A stretch of 64,000 nucleotides of DNA from Dyadobacter jejuensis. GTDB lineage: Bacteria; Bacteroidota; Bacteroidia; Cytophagales; Spirosomataceae. A program made the translations under genes and the position numbers. Within the stretch, counting starts at the first letter, position 1; each line of letters opens with the position of its first letter. Below the pieces are notes generated by a model. That model ran no database searches. It was not told the DNA's origin and saw only the letters and a list, made by a program, of their open reading frames with translations. Below are positions 12,501 through 48,496 of the stretch, piece by piece. The stretch covers positions 62,001 through 126,000 of the forward strand of contig NZ_QGDT01000008.1 in the NCBI RefSeq assembly GCF_003149085.1, given 5' to 3'.

Positions 12501-13718
12501 ATGACCATCATGAACGCTGTTATTCGAAATATCTCCCTTTCCTTTCTTACTCTCTTTATTGTACTGGTTATGCACCCCAGCCATACTTCAGCTCAGCAAT
12601 CAGGCGCTGTCTCATCCCTAAAAGTAGCTACTTTTAACGTGAGCATGGAATCTCAAAACTATCAGAAGGGCACCACTCCCCCCCTTTCTGAGGCTATTTT
12701 AAAAAATGAGTTGGCATCCGGACAAAACGATCAGATTCGCAATATTGCCCGCATCATACAAATGGTCCGTCCCGATGTAATCCTACTCAATGAGTTCGAC
12801 TATATCGAAAACCCCGAAGAAGGTATACAGTTATTTATAAAAAACTATCTCCAGAAAGGTGAGTCACCGATAGACTATCCATATTTCTATTATAATACGG
12901 TAAACACCGGACAACCCAGCCCCTTCGACCTTGACAATGACGGAAAAGCGTCCCAATATGGCGCCGATGCTTGGGGGTATGGGCTTTATCCTGGTCAGTA
13001 TGGAATGGTATTGCTTTCTAAGTACCCCATACAGAAAGAAAAGGTACGCACTTTTCAACATTTCAAATGGAAGGATATGCCCGGTGCACTCCTTACTAAA
13101 AAGGCCGATGGCAGTAACTGGTACTCCAAAGAAGCCTGGGAGCAATTCCCCCTGTCGTCGAAAGCACATTGGGATATACCCATACGGGTGGGCAAAAACA
13201 CCGTCCACTTTCTGGCCAGTCACCCTACTCCACCGGCCTTCGACGGCCCCGAAGATCGCAATGGCAAGCGTAATCATGACGAAATAAGATTCTGGAAGGA
13301 TTATATCAACGGCTCTGCCGCTGGCGGCTATATATACGACGACCAGGGTCAGCGTGGAGGCCTTACCGGACCAAAGCGATTCGTTATCCTAGGAGACCAA
13401 AATGCCTCTCCAGATGAGGGAAATGCGCGCACGGAAGGTATTCAATCCTTGCTACAAGACCCATTGGTGCTAAGCCAGCCGACACCTGCCAGCGACGGTG
13501 GGGCACAGCATAGCCCCAATAACCCGGTAGCATTGCATCATACGGCTTCCTGGCGTATGCGCGCCGACTACGTGCTTCCCTCACGCTTTGGATTCACGAT
13601 CACGGATTCTGGAATTTTTTGGCCTACCAAAGATGCCCCCAACTACGCTCTAATAGACAACCGCGGCGCCAGCTCCGACCACCGCTTGGTATGGGTAGCG
13701 CTCCGTTTTAAGGAATAG
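12501..13718 (+). CDS. Secreted endonuclease/exonuclease/phosphatase (EEP) family protein
   Basis: 405 aa with a signal peptide ending around HTSAQQ. EEP-superfamily landmarks appear in order: KVATFNV (Asn metal ligand), DVILLNEFDY (Glu ligand), YGMVLLSKYPI, HFLASHPTPP, FVILGDQNASP (GDxN-like) and ALIDNRGASSDHRLVWV (SDH with the catalytic His). The family includes phosphodiesterases, DNases and sphingomyelinase-like enzymes. Because it is exported, a nutrient-scavenging phosphodiesterase is a reasonable inference. Start choice between codons 1 and 4 (MNAVIRNISL) is open. It is the second gene of a pair with the hydrolase. Confidence 0.85.
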   Translation: MTIMNAVIRNISLSFLTLFIVLVMHPSHTSAQQSGAVSSLKVATFNVSMESQNYQKGTTPPLSEAILKNELASGQNDQIRNIARIIQMVRPDVILLNEFDYIENPEEGIQLFIKNYLQKGESPIDYPYFYYNTVNTGQPSPFDLDNDGKASQYGADAWGYGLYPGQYGMVLLSKYPIQKEKVRTFQHFKWKDMPGALLTKKADGSNWYSKEAWEQFPLSSKAHWDIPIRVGKNTVHFLASHPTPPAFDGPEDRNGKRNHDEIRFWKDYINGSAAGGYIYDDQGQRGGLTGPKRFVILGDQNASPDEGNARTEGIQSLLQDPLVLSQPTPASDGGAQHSPNNPVALHHTASWRMRADYVLPSRFGFTITDSGIFWPTKDAPNYALIDNRGASSDHRLVWVALRFKE

Positions 13719-39552: not shown

Positions 39553-40287
39553 CTATTTTGACACCCACTTCACCGCATTCCTAATAAGGCTTTGATAGGC
39601 CGGCAAGCTATGTGAACCGGCATCATGGCCTAAGGCTATGCCCAAAATTCTCCCCTTTCCATATTGGACTTCAAAAACACTCGGAAAAACGGCATCTGAT
39701 TGCGTAGACTTAGCCGTTGCCAGCACCTTGATGGGCGAACCTTCTGGATCCGATTTGAAATAATAGAGCTCATCATCGAGCTCAAAAACGGCTGGCACAC
39801 CTTTCATTACCGGGTGGCTTGGGGCGGTGATGCTCACATCAAAGGGGCCATATTTGTTGTGCCCCCGAGCCCCACCTCCTACCAAATTTTTATTGTATTC
39901 GGGCCAATCGGCCCAGTTGTACCAAAGGGCCGGATGTGCCAATACCACCCCTTTTCCCGCCTGCGAAAAGGCCATAATTGCTTTTCGTATCGTTTTATCC
40001 TCAATAGGTTGATTATTGGCCAAAAACAAGACATCAGTATCGGGTAGCAGGGTTAGTATTTGACTAGGATCCTGGGTGTAGGTTACCTTGGCCAGCTTAC
40101 CTCGCTCCAGGGTTGCCACATCTTCCTGCTTATACCAGCGATCGAAGTCATGGGAGGACCCTCCTCCCACCATCAATACCCTTATCCCTTTCTTCTTAAC
40201 AGAACTGTGGGCTTGGCCTCCAATGCTCAGAAGGAGCAATAATGATAACAAATAATACGTACTTCGCATACTTTGGTGCATTTTCAT
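39553..40287 (-). CDS. Secreted ThuA-domain protein
   Basis: About 244 aa from ATG 40287 (MKMHQSMRSTYYLL); a longer reading begins at TTG. The signal peptide ends near GGQAHSS. The ThuA (trehalose-utilisation, glutamine-amidotransferase-like) domain shows IRVLMVGGGSSHDFDRWY, DVLFLANNQPI, GKGVVLAHPALWYNW and GRILGIALGHDAGSH. It lacks a catalytic Cys at the elbow, as is usual for ThuA. It is the second ThuA domain in the cluster, since the upstream gene starts with one. A periplasmic role in carbohydrate utilisation is inferred from family and context. Confidence 0.9.
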   Translation of the reverse strand: MKMHQSMRSTYYLLSLLLLLSIGGQAHSSVKKKGIRVLMVGGGSSHDFDRWYKQEDVATLERGKLAKVTYTQDPSQILTLLPDTDVLFLANNQPIEDKTIRKAIMAFSQAGKGVVLAHPALWYNWADWPEYNKNLVGGGARGHNKYGPFDVSITAPSHPVMKGVPAVFELDDELYYFKSDPEGSPIKVLATAKSTQSDAVFPSVFEVQYGKGRILGIALGHDAGSHSLPAYQSLIRNAVKWVSK

Positions 40288-40306
40288 GAGGTAAAAATTC
40301 CGTTTC

Positions 40307-43300
40307 TTATTTGACAACCCGCAGGATACCGTTCATTCCCCGCCAATGTCCCGGGAAGGTACATACGAATGGGTAGTCGCCGGGCTCAGCCGGAACTGTA
40401 AACTCTAAGGTTACCGTCTCTCCAGAGTTCACCAATTTGGTAGAGAAAAGCACCTCAGGAATGTCGGGGACATAGTATCGCTGAGCGGCCTGTGGATCGG
40501 TAAGTAGGGCATCGGCAGCCTTTCCCACGGTTTCCAAAGTACCTGGACGGGCAATCAGCATATTATGCTGCATCCCATCGGGATTTTCAAGAATAATGGC
40601 CACCTTTTGTCCGGCCTTTACTTTTATCAATGTTTTAGAATACTGCAACATCTCGGGCACCACCGACAGCTCGATCACTTCCACATCGGTGGTGGGCTTA
40701 AAGGTCGATTTCTTAATGACGGTTACTGGACTTTGGCTAACTTCGGGCCTATTGAGCATGAGCTTGGCCTTTTGAAAACTCCCCCTAAAGGAAAACTTGT
40801 CGGGATAAGCCCCAATTTTAGTCTCTCGATCCTCCCCACTCCTTACTGTCTCCGGCAAAGGAGCGCGAAACAAACCATGCGTATTTCCTGTAGCCGCCAA
40901 CTCCCCGTCAATCTCCAGGGTCAGCTTACCAGAATTGTCTAAGCGAGCCAGTACCTCAAATTTTTCGGGCAGGTCGGCATCAGATTGCACCTTGGTCTGC
41001 ATCCCGTGCTGGTTTACCTGTACTACCACCCTCCCATTGGCAATGTAGAGGGCATAGCCCGCTGTGGCATCTCCCTGTCCCATAATAAAGCCCTCTAGCT
41101 CATAGTCTTGATCTTTGGTAATGAGGACCGACAGTGCAATCTCCTTGCCTGTAACGTCGGGTGCAAACTGCATGGTGGTTCTGCGTCCCAAATGATATAC
41201 TTCCTGACGCAAGGAGTTACGGATTTTTTCTGCAAATGCCGTCGGGCTGTTATCCCTTATGGCGGCAGCCAAAAACCCCTCTTCCTGTGCTATGGCCGCA
41301 GCTAGGAGGGCCTTGGCTATCCACGGATCCGCTGCATTTTCTTCTACTTTCGTGGCATTATAAAGCGCTTCTCCTATGGCCGGATCGGCCGGGTAATGGA
41401 TCAGGCTCACTAGGGCCGCCAGCCGGGTATTCAGATCCGTATCTTTAAGCAAAGGCACCATCGCATCAAAACTTTGGCGGTTTCTTGGCAATACGTCCAC
41501 TGCCGCTTTCCGAACTCCCGCTGCCGGGTGCTTCAAGGCCTGCACTACCACACGAACGGCCTCTGGGTGGCTGCCATCCAGCATACCCAGGCCATGCAAG
41601 GTCCATAATGCGTGCACGGCTGGACTATTTAACCCAATGGAATCCACGGCCTTATCCCCAATTATTTGATATAAGACGGGGGCCACCGACCGATCCCCCG
41701 ATTCGACCAATAGCCTTTGGGCGGTCATCCTCCAGAACATATTGTCGTTTCGGAGGGCGGCTAAAAGCCCAGGTTTGTCCTCTATCGACAGCCTTGGCTG
41801 AGGTTTCTTCACCGCCTTTTTGTAAACGACCCTGTACACTCTCCCGTGATTGGTATCGCGCATCTGGCTTTCGAAGGCATTTCCCTGTCCATGAGGCTGC
41901 TCTGTAAACGGAAGGATAAACTCTGAAGGCGACTGACGCGGAACGAATACGTTGTGCTGTATGATAAAGTTATACCAATCGGCCACCCAAACGGCTCCAT
42001 CGGGCCCCACTTCGGCATGCACCGGCCCAAACCATTCGTCGGAGCTGGCCATTAGGTTCCATCCATCCGATTCCTTAAAGCCGGCTCCATCTTTTTCGAT
42101 AATGGCATGATGAACAAGCCGAACGGTAGGCTCCGACACAAAGGCCACCCGGTTCCAGTAGGACTTGGGGTAGTCGCGTGCCGTATAAAAATGATGTCCT
42201 GAGGCGGCGGTAAAGCCTCCTACCACATCCACTTGGCGCAAATTGGGCGTCATAGCATGCGCATCGTAATGTCCGTCAATTTTTTGCACAGACTGAATTT
42301 CCTTCTCTTCCCCCTCAAGCCGCCTTTGCATATATCGCGCTGGCATGGAGTAAAAAGCACTATGGGTATTATTGGCCGTCGATAGGAACACGTTATTGTC
42401 TTCGGTGAAGCCTAATCCCCAGGTATTATTGCTGGTATTGCCCAAAAAGGCAAAATCGGAGCCGTCGGGATTAAAATGATAGACTCCCTGAGGAAATTTC
42501 AGTTTCTGCCCATCGACTACCCCGTCGAACCCAGAGTAGCCATTGACTCCCCATATCTTATTATCGAAGCCATATTGCAGATGCGAAGGACCGGCATGGG
42601 TATCGTTTTTACCCCACCCGGTCATAATCACCCGTCGGACGTCGGCCACGTCATCCCCATTGGTATCCTTTAAAAAAACAAAATCGGGCGCCATAGAGAC
42701 GATCACCCCGCCCTGAGAGAATACCATGCTCGTGGGGATATTGAGCCCATCGGCAAAAACGGTAAATTTATCGGCCTTGCCATCGCCATCGGTATCTTCG
42801 CAGATTTTGATGCGGTCGTTGGCCTGCCCATCGGTCTCCTTAAAGGTGTTGGGGTAGTCCACCGACTCCACTACCCAAAGCCGACCCCTTTCATCCCAAG
42901 CCATAGAAATGGGGTTTTGAATGTCGGGTTCTGCTGCAAAAAGCTGGATTTCGAAATCGGCCGGCACTTGAATTAACTTGCTCGATTGGGCTGGAGAAAG
43001 AGCGACCTGTTCTTGGGGTACTACATGGCGCTGGGTAAACCCTGCGATGGTATCGGACTCGTAAATATCGGGATCTGGAATGTCTAAGGCCGCAATTTGT
43101 TCGGACACTCTGTCACCAATCGCCCAGAGGACGCCGTTACGTACCAAATTCAAAAAACCAATATTGGTCCAGGTTTTGTCTTCATGGCCATAGGCCGTGT
43201 AAAACACCCGCCCCTTACCTTGGGTGCGTACCCAAGTATAAGGCTCATGATGGGTACCATCGACCCGCTCACCCAATATCAGGTTATCGGGGTTGAGTCG

Positions 43301-43831
43301 TTGATGTACATAGGTTTCATCCCAGGTCTCGAAGGGGGTGATACCCTTCAGGACTGGGTGCTGAGGCTGTAGAATGGTATTGGCAAAGGAACCAGTACCA
43401 TGCGAGGCAAACTGCCCCCCGATAGCCGAGATATACCAATCCGAATTCCGAAAACAACCCGATGCCGAATGAATAGGGATAAGGCCTTTGCCCCCGTCTA
43501 CGAAAGCCTTGAGCGCAGCCTCCTGCTGTGGAGGTAAAGAATCGTGATTGGCATAGATAATCAGGCCATCAAATTTGGAAAGGTTCTCCGTATTGAGATC
43601 CGCCAAATCGGTGGTATAGGACATATTCACCCCACTCCGAAATAGCTTTATAGCCAGCCAAGGTGCATATTTCCCCGAGTCGTGGTGCTTGCTCTGATGC
43701 CCCAAAAAAAGCACTTCGCCTCGACGTGCTGAAGGTACCCCCTCCGACTGCCTGGTATGCTGCACCGTTTGGTGACTTTTAACACAACTTACTACGATGA
43801 CCCACAGGATCAACGCTTTCCAATATTTCAT
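40307..43831 (-). CDS. Giant lipoprotein: ThuA - PVC-type dehydrogenase propeller - HEAT - lectin-like - azurin
   Basis: 1174 aa. The N-terminal lipobox is IVVSC. A ThuA domain (about 35-250: GEVLFLGHQS, GKGLIPIHSASGCF, GRVFYTAYGHED) is followed by a six-bladed propeller of the membrane-bound dehydrogenase type (about 285-640: FEIQLFAAEPDIQNPISMAWDERGRLWVVES). HEAT-like repeats (about 690-870) and a concanavalin-like sandwich (about 890-1030) come next. The C-terminus is a cupredoxin: His1089 (GMQHNML), Cys1157, His1162 and Met1166 give the azurin C-x4-H-x3-M copper site. No CxxCH is present, although relatives usually end in a heme c. Probably a surface or periplasmic sugar oxidase that passes electrons through copper. 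Confidence 0.92.
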   Translation of the reverse strand: MKYWKALILWVIVVSCVKSHQTVQHTRQSEGVPSARRGEVLFLGHQSKHHDSGKYAPWLAIKLFRSGVNMSYTTDLADLNTENLSKFDGLIIYANHDSLPPQQEAALKAFVDGGKGLIPIHSASGCFRNSDWYISAIGGQFASHGTGSFANTILQPQHPVLKGITPFETWDETYVHQRLNPDNLILGERVDGTHHEPYTWVRTQGKGRVFYTAYGHEDKTWTNIGFLNLVRNGVLWAIGDRVSEQIAALDIPDPDIYESDTIAGFTQRHVVPQEQVALSPAQSSKLIQVPADFEIQLFAAEPDIQNPISMAWDERGRLWVVESVDYPNTFKETDGQANDRIKICEDTDGDGKADKFTVFADGLNIPTSMVFSQGGVIVSMAPDFVFLKDTNGDDVADVRRVIMTGWGKNDTHAGPSHLQYGFDNKIWGVNGYSGFDGVVDGQKLKFPQGVYHFNPDGSDFAFLGNTSNNTWGLGFTEDNNVFLSTANNTHSAFYSMPARYMQRRLEGEEKEIQSVQKIDGHYDAHAMTPNLRQVDVVGGFTAASGHHFYTARDYPKSYWNRVAFVSEPTVRLVHHAIIEKDGAGFKESDGWNLMASSDEWFGPVHAEVGPDGAVWVADWYNFIIQHNVFVPRQSPSEFILPFTEQPHGQGNAFESQMRDTNHGRVYRVVYKKAVKKPQPRLSIEDKPGLLAALRNDNMFWRMTAQRLLVESGDRSVAPVLYQIIGDKAVDSIGLNSPAVHALWTLHGLGMLDGSHPEAVRVVVQALKHPAAGVRKAAVDVLPRNRQSFDAMVPLLKDTDLNTRLAALVSLIHYPADPAIGEALYNATKVEENAADPWIAKALLAAAIAQEEGFLAAAIRDNSPTAFAEKIRNSLRQEVYHLGRRTTMQFAPDVTGKEIALSVLITKDQDYELEGFIMGQGDATAGYALYIANGRVVVQVNQHGMQTKVQSDADLPEKFEVLARLDNSGKLTLEIDGELAATGNTHGLFRAPLPETVRSGEDRETKIGAYPDKFSFRGSFQKAKLMLNRPEVSQSPVTVIKKSTFKPTTDVEVIELSVVPEMLQYSKTLIKVKAGQKVAIILENPDGMQHNMLIARPGTLETVGKAADALLTDPQAAQRYYVPDIPEVLFSTKLVNSGETVTLEFTVPAEPGDYPFVCTFPGHWRGMNGILRVVK

Positions 43832-44155
43832 ATTTACTTACTTTATCTAAAAAAAACGTTAGGTAATTCTTAACACAGAATAGTATTCTATTCTCCAAGT
43901 CCAACGACTCGACGTATGGCCCTTGGGAGAACATCAGCCCTTAGGCATGGATGAATTTAGGCCGCGAAAATTACTTCAATCAGCCCCTATAACGGAACCC
44001 TTAGCTCGTTTAAATACCCCAGCATATGGCCCTAAAGTAGCCTTTACCCTCCCACCGAACAATAACGCTATAGTATACACGTAACCCACCCAGCCGATAC
44101 CCGATCGACCTGTCGATACACGCTGATACTTCAAATATTCAGGAAAACCTGCCTT
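43832..44155. other. Intergenic region upstream of the giant redox gene
   Basis: 324 bp. It contains the palindrome at 43877-43894. On the minus strand the frame of the upstream FecR-like gene stays open after its TGA for about 60 codons, to TGA at 43978-43976, with a hydrophobic stretch GIGWVGYVYTIALLFGG. This may be the lost rest of that gene or chance. Nothing else seen. Confidence 0.5.
43877..43894. promoter_or_regulatory. 18-bp operator candidate AGAATAGTATTCTATTCT (copy 1)
   Basis: Perfect 7-4-7 inverted repeat AGAATAG-TATT-CTATTCT, 46-63 bp upstream of the giant redox gene. It matches 16 of 18 positions of the element at 45168-45185 upstream of the sigma gene. Confidence 0.65.
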
Positions 44156-44431
44156 TCACTTCATTTTACCTTTTACCACCTCCCACATTTTGCTACTTTG
44201 CTCGGCGCTGGGTTTGTGACGCCCCGTATCCACAGCCAGTAGCAATACATATTCACGGGCAGATGCTATTAAACCCGTCGATTCCGGAAACTGCACCTGA
44301 TAGTCATGCCAATAGCGATCCTGTATCGTATCCGGATTAAGTACCCAATCGATAAACTTGTCGTGCCGTATCAGCTCAGTAAGGGTAAAGGGTACTGCTT
44401 TCATCTGGTTTGCCTTTCTGGTGCCATTCAT
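44156..44431 (-). CDS. FecR-like protein reduced to its N-terminal (sigma-binding) domain
   Basis: 91 aa. The sequence LIRHDKFIDWVLNPDTIQDRYWHDYQVQFPESTGLIASAREYVLLL matches the pattern of the N-terminal cytoplasmic domain of Bacteroidota FecR anti-sigma factors. A TGA follows MWEVVKGKMK, exactly where the membrane helix and periplasmic FecR domain normally begin. It lies 62 bp downstream of an ECF sigma gene, the usual FecR place. In E. coli the isolated FecR N-terminal domain promotes FecI activity, so this short form may be a constitutive sigma activator or a simple cytoplasmic anti-sigma factor. Truncation by mutation is also possible, since the frame stays open after the stop. Confidence 0.7.
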   Translation of the reverse strand: MNGTRKANQMKAVPFTLTELIRHDKFIDWVLNPDTIQDRYWHDYQVQFPESTGLIASAREYVLLLAVDTGRHKPSAEQSSKMWEVVKGKMK

Positions 44432-44493
44432 ATACTAAGAGTCGGGAAATCGGTAAACGACCCCTTCAATGCATGCGTATTTCGAATAAAATT

Positions 44494-45114
44494 TTAAACA
44501 TTCAGGAGGAGAGCCAAGCACCACAAGGTTAGGTGTGCCAATTCTTGAGCCAATCTCATATGGGTCAAGGCTTTATATAAGAAATTTCGAACCGACTTCT
44601 GGCTTACTCCCATCATCTGGGCTATTTGCTCGTTGGAAAGGCCTTCGTAATACCGCAAGGTAATGGCTTCCAGCTGGCGCTGAGGAAGGGAGTTGATCAG
44701 TTTCTGCACCATTTCTTTGCGCTGACCTTCGGACTCGGCAGCGATCATAAGCTGTTCGGTATCGCCCAAAGACTGAGCCAAAAGGACTTCCTCGGGCACC
44801 GCACTCAGGTCGTCGGTGTGGCTATGCCGATCCATTCCTTTACGAATACGCCTACGCAAACAACGCAACAAGTAGTATCTGATGGACAGAACCTGTTCTG
44901 TAAGCCCTTCCCTTAGCCTCCAAATATCTATGAACACATCCTGAATGGCATCTTCCAGCAGGTCGGTCTCCGAAGTAAGCTTGCTGCCATAATTATAAAG
45001 ATGGGGATGGTACTTTTCAAATAGGAAGGTAAAGGCGGCCTCATCGCCAGAACGTACGGCCTTCCACAGCTGTGGTTCTGTTTCCCAAACTCCGAAAGGT
45101 TCTATTTTTTTCAC
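44494..45114 (-). CDS. ECF-type RNA polymerase sigma factor (Bacteroidota FecI-like)
   Basis: 206 aa. It begins with GTG; no ATG is available upstream. Region 2 is seen in GDEAAFTFLFEKYHPHLYNYGSKLTSETDLLEDAIQDVFIDIWRLRE and region 4 in INSLPQRQLEAITLRYYEGLSNEQIAQMMGVSQKSVRNFLYKALTHMR. A hydrophobic C-terminal tail (LTLWCLALLLNV) is odd for a soluble sigma factor and may contact the membrane or a partner. It is followed by the FecR-N gene. No SusC/SusD pair is adjacent, so the likely targets are the redox cluster genes, which share its upstream palindrome. Confidence 0.93.
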   Translation of the reverse strand: MKKIEPFGVWETEPQLWKAVRSGDEAAFTFLFEKYHPHLYNYGSKLTSETDLLEDAIQDVFIDIWRLREGLTEQVLSIRYYLLRCLRRRIRKGMDRHSHTDDLSAVPEEVLLAQSLGDTEQLMIAAESEGQRKEMVQKLINSLPQRQLEAITLRYYEGLSNEQIAQMMGVSQKSVRNFLYKALTHMRLAQELAHLTLWCLALLLNV

Positions 45115-45146
45115 GATAGACTAGGTGCTGCAAAATCATCAATGGT

Positions 45147-45154
45147 CAAATATA
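45147..45154 (-). promoter_or_regulatory. -7 element TATATTTG upstream of the sigma gene
   Basis: Perfect TAnnTTTG match on the minus strand, 32 bp before the GTG start. The shared 18-bp palindrome occupies the place of the -33 box, 13 bp upstream. Confidence 0.45.
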
Positions 45155-45167
45155 ATAATTTTTCATT

Positions 45168-45185
45168 GGAATGGTATTCTATTCT
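45168..45185. promoter_or_regulatory. 18-bp operator candidate GGAATGGTATTCTATTCT (copy 2)
   Basis: 16 of 18 positions identical to the perfect palindrome at 43877-43894, with the left half-site degenerate. It sits 54-71 bp upstream of the sigma gene and overlaps the expected -33 region of its promoter. Confidence 0.65.
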
Positions 45186-45242
45186 TACACCGAAGTCGGG
45201 AGGGGAATAGCCTTTTGCACTATTCCCCAGTCGTAATCGACC

Positions 45243-46694
45243 TTATAATTTCAAATCCCAGCCATCGCGGTATTCTCTTTTTACGAACTGATTGGCATTT
45301 TCATAATTGGTCACCTTCATATTCTCGGCATCCCAATACAGTTTTTTACGTCCTAAATATTTATCTGCCGAACGTTTCGCTGTGGGGTTATCGCGCGACA
45401 TCCAGCTTCTGAGGGCCAAGTTGCCAATGAGGATACTTTCAGTAAAGGGAGCGGCGTATTCAAAGGGCGAACTAGTAACCCCCTTGCCATAGCCATCCAT
45501 ACATGCATTTACCCATTGCAGATAGTGGTCCTCGTTGGGTACGCGCGCCAAAGTTTCGGGAACATTCACGATTTCATTCTCCTTCAGCGGAAGCAACCGA
45601 GGGTTGGCCCCATAGCAGTCGGCCATCAGCTTTCCTTTGGAACCGATAAAGAGCACCCCGCCATCCGAATTTCCAAATGCATCTCCAGGCTCGAGCTCCT
45701 CGGGCAGTTCAGGCAATATCCCGCCGTCGTACCAGCTGACCTTAATATTCCCTTCCCCGTCGTTGCGGGGGTAGTCGAGGTGAATAGAAGTGGTAAAGGG
45801 CGTCCATGCCGGGTTATTATCTTGCTCTCTTAAAGTAAAAGTCCAAGTACCTCCTACGCTACACTCCACTGAAGTAGGATAAAGGATCGGCAATATCCTA
45901 TACACAGGATCCATAATATGGCAGGCCATATCGCCAAGCGCTCCGGTGCCATAAGGCCACCAGCCTCGCCAGTTCCATGGCAAGTAGGATTTGTTATACC
46001 CCACCTTGGGTGAAGGTCCTAGCCATAGGTCAAAATCGAGCTCTTTAGGGATGGGGTCTATGGTGTCAGTAGGTACGGCCTGTGGCCAAACCGGACGGTT
46101 GGTCCAGCATAACACCTTTTCTACCTTCCCAATAATTCCTGAGTTATAGAGCTCCTGCATGCGGCGCACCCCATTCCCCGAACCACCTTGGTTCCCCATT
46201 TGGGTGATTACCTTGTATTTCTTGGCCGCTTGACCAAGGATTCGGGCCTCATAAATATCGTGGGTCAGGGGCTTTTGGGTATACACATGCTTGCCCAGTT
46301 GCATAGCCGCCAATGTAGCCACCGCGTGGGTGTTGTCGGGGGTAGAAATGGAGCATGCATCGATATTTTTATGCTCCTTCTGTAGCATTTCTCTAAAGTC
46401 CCTATAGTAGTTGGCCTTGGGGAAATTCTCCCTAGAAGTAACCGCCTGCCTGTCATCAACATCACAAAGGGCCACTATATTCACATGGGGACTCTTGGCA
46501 AAGCTCGCCAAGTCGCTTCTCCCCTTGCCCCCTACCCCAATACCAGCAATATTGAGTTTATCACTTGGAGCGATATATCCTTTTCCTAGAACATGGCGTG
46601 GAACAATAAAGAAAGAGCTGGCCGCTAAACTACTCGCTTTGATAAATTCCCGGCGTGTCGGGGCATTCGCTTTAGTTGACTTTTGGTCTTTCAT
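45243..46694 (-). CDS. Tat-exported Gfo/Idh/MocA-family oxidoreductase
   Basis: 483 aa. The twin-arginine signal TRREFIKASSLAASSFFIV shows export with bound cofactor. The Rossmann domain has KLNIAGIGVGGKGRSDLASF and IVALCDVDDRQ; the EKP-type motif is GKHVYTQKPLTHDIYEA with the Lys kept. The MGNQGGSGNGVRRMQELYNSGIIGKV and WPYGTGALGDMACHIMDPVYRIL segments define the secreted subfamily common in Bacteroidota and Planctomycetes. It probably oxidises or cleaves a sugar derivative in the periplasm. It lies upstream of the sigma gene on the same strand, with 128 bp between. Confidence 0.93.
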   Translation of the reverse strand: MKDQKSTKANAPTRREFIKASSLAASSFFIVPRHVLGKGYIAPSDKLNIAGIGVGGKGRSDLASFAKSPHVNIVALCDVDDRQAVTSRENFPKANYYRDFREMLQKEHKNIDACSISTPDNTHAVATLAAMQLGKHVYTQKPLTHDIYEARILGQAAKKYKVITQMGNQGGSGNGVRRMQELYNSGIIGKVEKVLCWTNRPVWPQAVPTDTIDPIPKELDFDLWLGPSPKVGYNKSYLPWNWRGWWPYGTGALGDMACHIMDPVYRILPILYPTSVECSVGGTWTFTLREQDNNPAWTPFTTSIHLDYPRNDGEGNIKVSWYDGGILPELPEELEPGDAFGNSDGGVLFIGSKGKLMADCYGANPRLLPLKENEIVNVPETLARVPNEDHYLQWVNACMDGYGKGVTSSPFEYAAPFTESILIGNLALRSWMSRDNPTAKRSADKYLGRKKLYWDAENMKVTNYENANQFVKREYRDGWDLKL

Positions 46695-46814: not shown

Positions 46815-47549
46815 TCATCCATCGTTATTATTAATGATCCTATCGGCCAGCCTTGGCCAGAGCCTATGAAGGATTCGCAACAGTCTTATCTTCCCAATAT
46901 TGGCCTCAAACCGATCGTGCTTAAAGCATATTACGAAGGCATCGGCAAGCTGGTCAGCGGATATTTTCCCCTTCCCTCTGCCTTGGGTCATATCGGTCGC
47001 CACCAACGGGGGGATCAGTTCAAAAACCCTGGTATTGGGCAGCTGATAACGGAGCGACTGGGAAAATAAATGCATGGCGGCTTTACTGGCACTATAGACA
47101 GCCGCCAACTTTTTGGGTACTATGGCCATCCCAGACGATACATTAATAATGGCCGATCGATGATTGGCCATCAGTATAGGCAATAGCGCTGCCGTCAATT
47201 TGGCTGGAGCTAGGAAATTGACGGTCATTTCATAATCGATTTTACTGAAAATATGGGGCTCCTCTGCAAATAGGTAATTATACTGAATACCCGCATTATT
47301 GATGAGGATATTCAGATCGGGATGTTCTCGTTCAATAAAGAGAATAAGGCGATCCAAATCGGCTGGCACTGCCAAATCACCCATAAAGGTGGCCAGGGTT
47401 GGATATTGCTTTTGAATAGAATCCAAATCAGCTTCGTTTCTTCCGGTAATAATCACCCGGTTGTTCAGTGACAAAAACTTCTTGGCAAGTGCTAATCCGA
47501 TCCCCCGAGTCGCCCCGGTGATCAGGATTTTATGTTGACTAAGCTCCAT
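46815..47549 (-). CDS. Short-chain dehydrogenase/reductase (DltE-like)
   Basis: 244 aa classical SDR. The cofactor motif TGATRGIG is at residues 11-18, NNAG is in LNILINNAGIQYNYLF, and the catalytic Tyr and Lys are in AVYSASKAAMHLFSQSLRYQL. INVSSGMAIVPKK supplies the active-site Ser. The C-terminus (GRGKGKISADQLADAFV) resembles the DltE/YbbO-like oxidoreductases. The substrate is unknown. It is separated from the secreted oxidoreductase gene by 120 bp on the same strand. Confidence 0.93.
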   Translation of the reverse strand: MELSQHKILITGATRGIGLALAKKFLSLNNRVIITGRNEADLDSIQKQYPTLATFMGDLAVPADLDRLILFIEREHPDLNILINNAGIQYNYLFAEEPHIFSKIDYEMTVNFLAPAKLTAALLPILMANHRSAIINVSSGMAIVPKKLAAVYSASKAAMHLFSQSLRYQLPNTRVFELIPPLVATDMTQGRGKGKISADQLADAFVICFKHDRFEANIGKIRLLRILHRLWPRLADRIINNNDG

Positions 47550-47746
47550 TTTATGTAAAGGTTAAAATCCATCGTTTTCTCCCGCCATTTCAATACACCA
47601 ACGGCCCTTTGTACAAGCATTAACAATACCTGCCATACCACGGTGGTGGATCGACAGCCTGCTTGGCAAGGGCCTATGACCTTCATGAAATAGCGTTACA
47701 AATAACCGGCTTGTTTACGGGCCGTCCATTTACATAGGTAAAGAAA

Positions 47747-48322
47747 TCATCCTTTGGTCCGCATTTTTCTAATCCGGCTCAACTGCGTGGGTGTAATGCC
47801 GAGATAAGAGGCTATATGATATTGCGGAATGAGGTTTTCTAGCTCAGGAAATTCATTTTTGAAAATCTGATAACGTTTATCGGCATTTAGCAATACGATT
47901 TCAACCTCACGCCTTTCTTTCTGTACAAAATATTGTTCGGCAAGTATCCTTGACAACCGTTCCAAATCGGGCCACTCATCGTAGCGCTTCGTGAGGGAGT
48001 GGTAATCGGCTTCCCAAATATGGCAATCGGTAAGCGCCTGCAGATTGATAGGACTAGGCTCTCCCGTAACCAGGGAAGAAAATCCACCAATAAAACAAGG
48101 AGCCCTAAAAAAATGCTTGTTATACTCCTGCCCACCCTCTGTACGGTAGTAGGCTCGAAGGATTCCGTGTTCCAATATCCCAAACTTTTTGGCCACCTTT
48201 CCAGCCTCCACAAACGATTCGTGTTTCCTGAGTGCGACCTCACAAAAGATCCCCTCCAATTCACGCAGGGTAGCGGGAGTTAGCGGAGAGATAGAACATA
48301 GATATTGGAACAGCTGCTGCAC
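47747..48322 (-). CDS. Crp/Fnr-family transcriptional regulator
   Basis: About 191 aa from a GTG at 48322 (VQQLFQYLCSISPLTPATLRELEG), with AGGAG 4 nt before it. No ATG is available, and the open frame extends upstream only into a hydrophobic, non-conserved stretch beginning at a TTG. The cyclic-nucleotide-binding-like beta-barrel (LRKHESFVEAGKVAKKFGILEHGILRAYYRTEGGQEYNKHFF) is followed by a helix-turn-helix, ENLIPQYHIASYLGITPTQLSRIRK. This pattern is usual for Bacteroidota Crp-like regulators, mostly without a known ligand. It is divergent from nothing and lies 197 bp upstream of the SDR gene. Confidence 0.88.
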   Translation of the reverse strand: MQQLFQYLCSISPLTPATLRELEGIFCEVALRKHESFVEAGKVAKKFGILEHGILRAYYRTEGGQEYNKHFFRAPCFIGGFSSLVTGEPSPINLQALTDCHIWEADYHSLTKRYDEWPDLERLSRILAEQYFVQKERREVEIVLLNADKRYQIFKNEFPELENLIPQYHIASYLGITPTQLSRIRKMRTKG

Positions 48323-48464
48323 GACTCCTGTATTTAGTAGGTACAAAAAAACTGGAAGACTCCAAAGGCCTATCGTATTGCCCTGAAATATAGGACAAAA
48401 AATTAAAAGCCTAGGGCTTATTATCTCAAATTGGCAAGAATTTAAAAATAACTGGCTACCTACC

Positions 48465-48496
48465 AAAAGAGCGCAGCGACCGATGGTCCTGCGCTC
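48465..48496 (-). terminator. Rho-independent terminator after the class-V aminotransferase gene
   Basis: Stem GAGCGCAG / CTGCGCTC enclosing an inner GACC/GGTC pairing, with TTTT on the minus strand immediately after. Confidence 0.75.

Follow-up and report, generated by a model that had tools for sequence, protein, structure and literature searches.

Two near-identical palindromes before an ECF sigma/FecR N-domain gene pair and a ThuA-cupredoxin operon at a receptor-less locus of Dyadobacter jejuensis

The sigma/FecR locus and its palindromic sites

The locus described here lies in a window of 64,000 nucleotides, the whole stretch of DNA that was analysed (G000:C8:62001-126000), taken from contig C8 of the Dyadobacter jejuensis assembly G000 (5.76 Mb, 72 contigs). 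An ECF sigma factor gene and a very long gene encoding a multidomain protein (the giant gene) stand at either end of a short segment, each preceded by one copy of an 18-bp element. The features, in window positions, are:

39553..40317, minus strand: second ThuA gene, 254 aa, overlapping the end of the giant gene
40307..43831, minus strand: giant gene, 1174 aa, with ThuA, DUF7133 (TIGR02604), HEAT_2 and cupredoxin (Copper-bind) domains
43832..44155, minus strand: intergenic segment, in the place of the FecR C-terminal part, SusC, SusD and DUF3823 of relatives
43877..43894, minus strand: site 1, AGAATAGTATTCTATTCT, a perfect 7-4-7 inverted repeat, 46-63 bp before the giant gene start
44156..44431, minus strand: stand-alone FecR N-terminal domain, 91 aa, aligning to residues 1-81 of a 381-aa FecR
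44494..45114, minus strand: ECF sigma factor gene, 206 aa, with Sigma70_r2 and Sigma70_r4_2 (Pfam) and an NCBIfam sigma70-ECF match above cut-off
45168..45185, minus strand: site 2, GGAATGGTATTCTATTCT, a near-copy of site 1 (16/18), 54-71 bp before the sigma gene start
45243..46694, minus strand: Gfo/Idh/MocA oxidoreductase gene, upstream of the sigma gene, whose best NCBIfam match, the glycoside 3-dehydrogenase BT_2158 family, falls below cut-off (479 of 750 bits)
47747..48466, minus strand: Crp-like regulator gene with a cNMP-binding domain, and no match in the regions of 35 relatives

The window holds a sigma factor with regions 2 and 4, as a FecI/FecR system requires, together with the cytoplasmic end of FecR, while the parts that would face the cell exterior are missing. 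The 91-aa FecR N-domain protein itself gave no Pfam or NCBIfam match, and a tblastn search with the 381-aa FecR found nothing else in the window that would supply the periplasmic FecR domain. Likewise, there is no SusC gene between the FecR-N gene and the giant gene, and so no STN-bearing receptor at the locus; three other SusC-like matches, 29-37% identical, lie elsewhere in the window. The DNA directly upstream of the giant gene (43832..44155) had no other match at E 0.001 in its own genome or in 47 other genomes of the genus, and the closest named records of the giant protein are nearly all from Dyadobacter. Further upstream, the segment between the oxidoreductase gene and serC (46815-48466) holds a short-chain dehydrogenase gene besides the Crp-like gene, neither of which occurs in the 35 relatives' regions. 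The oxidoreductase resembles the periplasmic glycoside 3-dehydrogenase BT2158, which is involved in disaccharide use and whose mutant, according to an excerpt of the published work, did not grow on trehalose, leucrose or palatinose (PMC11300592). As the match to that family falls below its cut-off, a corresponding substrate and role of the window protein would be putative.

A preliminary description of this DNA had reported the two 18-mers, their agreement at 16 of 18 positions, the perfect repeat at site 1, the distances to the start codons and the matching orientation, all of which were confirmed when measured from the giant ATG at 43831 and the sigma GTG at 45114. Both genes are transcribed from the minus strand, and along transcription site 1 reads AGAATAGAATACTATTCT and site 2 AGAATAGAATACCATTCC, with five of the seven arm pairs kept in the latter. 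The reported absence of a third copy in the window holds at up to two mismatches to site 2; the one match with three mismatches (13002-13019) falls within an ORF. A mechanically called plus-strand ORF of 95 aa (45125-45412) overlaps site 2, and we do not take it for a gene.

Thirteen bp downstream of site 2 stands TATATTTG, which fits the Bacteroidetes -7 box consensus TAnnTTTG as given in an excerpt of PMC7366714, and site 2 would overlap the expected -33 region. Such a position would suit either a repressor or an activator touching RNA polymerase, and the data favour neither. A clear -7 box is visible for the sigma copy only, with none clear before the giant gene. No RNA family was found in the window by Rfam at gathering thresholds, and a scan for E. 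coli-type promoters and terminators, the model of which leaves Bacteroidetes promoters outside, returned 2 and 2 compared with 2.0 and 1.4 in shuffles.

An ancestral locus and its shortened FecR proteins

Comparison with related genomes offers a ready explanation for the proximity of the two genes. In 32 of 35 relatives' regions the order is sigma-FecR-SusC-SusD-DUF3823-giant, with the place of the giant gene taken from a separate search where a region ended at it. Throughout these 32 intact loci a full FecR, aligned over residues 1-376 or more of 381, is accompanied by a full-length SusC, aligned from its first residue (at L209 in two overlapping pieces); in the intact locus L164, FecR has FecR and FecR_C domains and SusC has an STN domain. 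The preliminary description had tied the sigma/FecR-N pair to the giant operon by way of the palindrome. The tie exists, but it does not run through the motif: judged from gene order, it is the shared ancestry of a single locus, the middle of which is missing here, and it is older than the motif. In the 62 bp between the sigma stop and the fecR start (44432-44493), a block RGRGGTCA...GCTCT conserved in relatives is partly kept.

The window is not alone in having a shortened FecR. Here the protein ends after its N-domain, and SusC, SusD and DUF3823 are missing before the giant gene. The three non-intact regions among the 35 are L200 (genome G061), L153 (G022) and L215 (G040), the last of which yielded serC alone of the queries used. 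G061 keeps an intact sigma gene, its FecR stops at the end of an 84-aa N-domain and its SusC starts past the place of the STN domain, which Pfam likewise did not find in it (L200:3204-7097). In G022 the sigma frame is broken, the FecR N-domain is 89 aa long and there is no SusC; the frameshift falls near sigma residue 135 (L153:8521-9131), beside an intact FecR N-domain frame, and may reflect either decay or sequencing error. Outside the genus, at locus L077 of a metagenome-assembled genome, the sigma gene, a FecR N-domain of 88 aa and the giant gene follow closely on one another, and G064 has a 133-aa FecR composed of the N-domain and a hydrophobic segment, followed by an STN-less SusC (L260:2077-6001), SusD, DUF3823 and the giant gene. 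FecR is therefore truncated in the window, G061, G022, L077 and G064, and an N-domain frame stands beside an intact sigma gene in the window and in G061. When 150 genomes of the family were searched with the FecR N-domain, 59 had a match; among the matches listed, four were in short open frames (G000, G061, G064 and G084, the last with an internal stop), and G022 was not listed.

In a tree of the giant protein, the window and G061 form a clade (support 100/99), whereas G022 falls in a group (99/96) of species that have a full FecR where this was looked at, G040 excepted. Placing the FecR truncation on this tree, which does not include G064, requires at least two changes, and on these sequence data the truncation arose at least twice. 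Both truncated-FecR loci that keep a SusC, in G061 and G064, belong to different genera, and in both the SusC is STN-less. These linked fates of the FecR periplasmic part and the SusC STN domain suggest a dedicated partnership at the locus, in which the lost outer-membrane receptor probably once told the sigma factor when to act.

This arrangement recalls FecI/FecR/FecA signalling (E. coli fec, Pseudomonas fox/fiu/fpv), in which an ECF sigma gene is likewise followed by fecR, and the intact relative L164 shares the FecR and FecR_C domains and the STN domain on a TonB receptor. The window differs in having a FecR that is no more than the 91-aa N-domain and no receptor at the locus. An excerpt of PMC9249621 describes E. 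coli FecR N-terminal fragments, studied as laboratory mutants and constructs, that make FecI active without ferric citrate, whereas an FpvR N-fragment of Pseudomonas inhibits instead; the window version is a natural gene. Given these two precedents, the 91-aa N-domain may either activate the sigma factor or inhibit it in soluble form and, by analogy with the E. coli case, could make it signal-independent. Separated from the rest of FecR, it should be unable to receive a signal across the membrane, which fits the absence of a receptor. A sigma/anti-sigma pair of Bacteroidota at a polysaccharide utilisation locus is also known from PUL24 of B. thetaiotaomicron (BT1877/BT1876), where nonsense mutations in BT1876 or its deletion raise transcription of BT1871, a gene of that locus, as stated in an excerpt of PMC11501099. 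In that case it was mutants made in the laboratory that lacked the anti-sigma factor, whereas the window retains in nature an N-domain that may inhibit or activate. Among titles and abstract openings, a literature search gave nothing on natural stand-alone FecR N-domains in Bacteroidota and nothing on Dyadobacter ECF promoters. The loci described here provide natural variants with which to test whether FecR N-domains of Bacteroidota activate or inhibit their sigma factors.

Occurrence of the motif and the elements of related promoters

The motif is rare. Across the whole D. jejuensis genome, the pattern RGAATRGTATTCTATTCT at up to one mismatch finds sites 1 and 2 alone, and two mismatches add one intergenic match together with two others, at C1:483966 and C3:341096, which were rejected as both lie inside ORFs. 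A relaxed consensus, RGAATAGNATNCYATTCY, has three matches with zero mismatches, all on contig C8 and all intergenic (outside ORFs of 100 aa or more) just before genes. The additional match is:

G000:C8:205799-205816 (L169:9800-9817): third site, a zero-mismatch match to RGAATAGNATNCYATTCY, 46-63 bp before the NAD synthase ATG at C8:205862

The third site sits between a MacB/FtsX-like permease gene and the NAD synthase gene, the product of which has CN_hydrolase and NAD_synthase domains and no obvious link to the sigma or giant gene. It has no counterpart before NAD synthase in the six relatives compared. About 1.4 kb away is a gene that, judged by its first residues, resembles a LacI-type regulator (L169:7376-8416). 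The N positions of the consensus were fixed after the third site was known and two of the three sites are present by construction; only the place of the third site and the low background in the genus, where 47 other genomes have a single zero-mismatch match, inside an ORF, therefore count as evidence. In a search at up to three mismatches the pattern gave 36 rows and a reversed control 9, and as most of the loci looked at lie inside ORFs, looser matches mean little. A wider regulon was considered on the strength of a near-match at fumarase (C2:221045) and rejected: this sequence lies downstream of a block, cctaactttac, that precedes fumC in 7 of 7 genomes compared. G061 has a weaker sequence resembling the near-match, which we read as a non-site.

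Orthologous promoters do not share the motif. No sigma or giant promoter of a relative examined carries it, and a conserved motif before giant-gene orthologues was rejected, as none of 80 such loci had an upstream match within one mismatch of the 12 arm bases. Among these 80, no Dyadobacter locus matched within two mismatches; four loci of other genera did, and in three of these the match falls on the start of the matched gene or just within it. There is therefore no phylogenetic footprint, and from these comparisons the palindromic pair is real, lineage-specific and younger than the link between the sigma and giant genes.

The relatives have conserved promoter elements of their own. Before the sigma gene stands AATnnnATTTTA...TAGCTTTATGC; G022 and 31 of the 32 intact loci have its AATnnnATT core, at about -55 to -61. 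A 30-mer of this element (up to three mismatches) occurs once per genome in 27 of 48 genomes, and in each it immediately precedes the sigma gene. For the SusC promoter, which is presumed to be the target of the sigma factor, a pattern search found a conserved YTATGACRTA-type box in G061 and 29 of the 32 intact loci. As the two elements differ, the ancestral sigma gene does not look autoregulated. Neither was recognised in the window. A matrix of the SusC box scores 1.7 and -2.2 in the two window promoters (background median 1.4; relatives 8.6-22.8). The best score of the sigma-element matrix in the window sigma promoter is 6.7, at AAAAATTATTATA, beside the -7 box and off the motif, which exceeds only the 90th percentile of the background (4.8; 99th percentile 12.6; relatives 10.6 or more).

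Possible origins of the sites and a proposed new operator

The simplest explanation for the pair is coincidence, whereby two AT-rich promoter segments look alike and one is palindromic by accident. Perfect 7-4-7 repeats are indeed common, with seven in the 64 kb including site 1, and it was for this reason the pair that was tested, being the unusual part. When the window's 29 upstream regions were put through 60 simple shuffles, such pairs arose 0.23 times on average, and 0.017 times within 5 kb, and the absence of the sites from orthologous promoters would also be expected of an accident. For the neighbouring promoters themselves, however, only 3 of 3000 dinucleotide shuffles of both upstream regions reached 16 of 18, and none of 3000 also had a perfect palindrome; no such pair occurred in 881 region pairs at 35 related loci. 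The match in distance and orientation, and the third intergenic match compared with one site in 47 genomes of the genus, also argue against an accident. An origin by chance is unlikely, and we give it rather less than a one-in-three standing.

The preliminary description had also suggested a sigma-dependent promoter element, which would place the sites within promoters that the ECF sigma factor recognises, so that it would control its own gene as well as the giant operon. One site does precede the sigma gene and the other an operon descended from the presumed ancestral target, in the same orientation and at similar distances. This reading found no support in the matrix scores: the relatives' sigma and SusC promoters carry different conserved sequences, the SusC-type box scores low in both window promoters, and the sigma-element matrix, built from 31 relatives, gives -1.8 (sigma promoter) and 2.3 (giant promoter) at the motif, against a median of background maxima of -1.3. 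The region-4 helix of a sigma factor reads the -35 element. Its KSVRNF core is invariant among the 16 proteins aligned, and a change of -35 specificity would therefore be unexpected. Together, these points place sigma-dependent promoters well below a shared operator, and we consider them improbable. The same scores bear on the idea that the sites descend, with divergence, from the ancestral sigma-gene element, a copy of which reached the giant promoter. Site 2 does contain an AATnnnATT core (GAATACCATTC), no more than about 5 bp from where the ancestral one lies; against this, nothing else of the ancestral block can be recognised and the nearest relative, G061, lacks the core, making a remnant very improbable indeed.

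A shared operator is the plausible reading of the motif, a part of the preliminary description that stands insofar as the motif is rare and its three consensus matches are all just before genes, and is qualified by the absence of the motif from every orthologous promoter examined. Placed at promoter positions, as given by distance to the start codon, before several transcription units and rare elsewhere, the palindrome has the distribution expected of an operator. Its layout, two arms around a 4-bp centre, is that of Fnr-type operators (TTGAT n4 ATCAA), from which it differs in arm sequence. The nearby Crp-like regulator, also put forward in the preliminary description as a binder, is not favoured: a copy with 59% identity over residues 45-236 is present in G061 (C1:313342), a genome that has no consensus site, and the neighbour is thus not a strong candidate.

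We propose, at about even odds, that the sites are operators for one putative regulator at the sigma/FecR-N pair, at the giant operon and, as a third, before NAD synthase, and that they arose in this lineage after the loss of receptor-coupled signalling. In this model, based on the relatives' layout and on knowledge of the Fec family, SusC would ancestrally have released the sigma factor through a full-length FecR, and the giant gene would have been the distal part of the SusC-SusD operon. Reduction of FecR to its N-domain and loss of the SusC, SusD and DUF3823 genes would have followed, leaving the giant gene in need of a promoter of its own. The two sites would have arisen thereafter in the promoters of the sigma/FecR-N pair and the ThuA-DUF7133-cupredoxin operon, and the sigma and giant genes may in this way have been put under new common control.

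More tentatively, this group may repeatedly have cut loose receptor-coupled sigma signalling, reducing FecR to its cytoplasmic N-domain and leaving SusC without STN or gone while the sigma/N-domain pair was kept. The window pair and its last remaining target operon would then have come under a new common palindromic operator, turning a switch for outside signals into an internally controlled sigma circuit. Should this hold, the locus would be a counterpart in nature of the FecR truncations made experimentally in E. coli, and it would illustrate how a sigma circuit can be uncoupled from its receptor and rewired. Taken by itself the motif is modestly interesting, less so than the recurrent shortening of FecR together with the loss of SusC or its STN domain.

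Palindromic sequences also occur between FecR and SusC in relatives. In the SusC leaders of L154-L167, L201-L214 and L216-L219, a palindrome GATCAGYCATG-n-CATGACTGATC follows an A-run downstream of the SusC box, and the same leaders contain a second possible hairpin, GGGGAAGATTTCGTTGAATAATCTCC. The intergenic palindrome is a possible operator or reverse-strand terminator.
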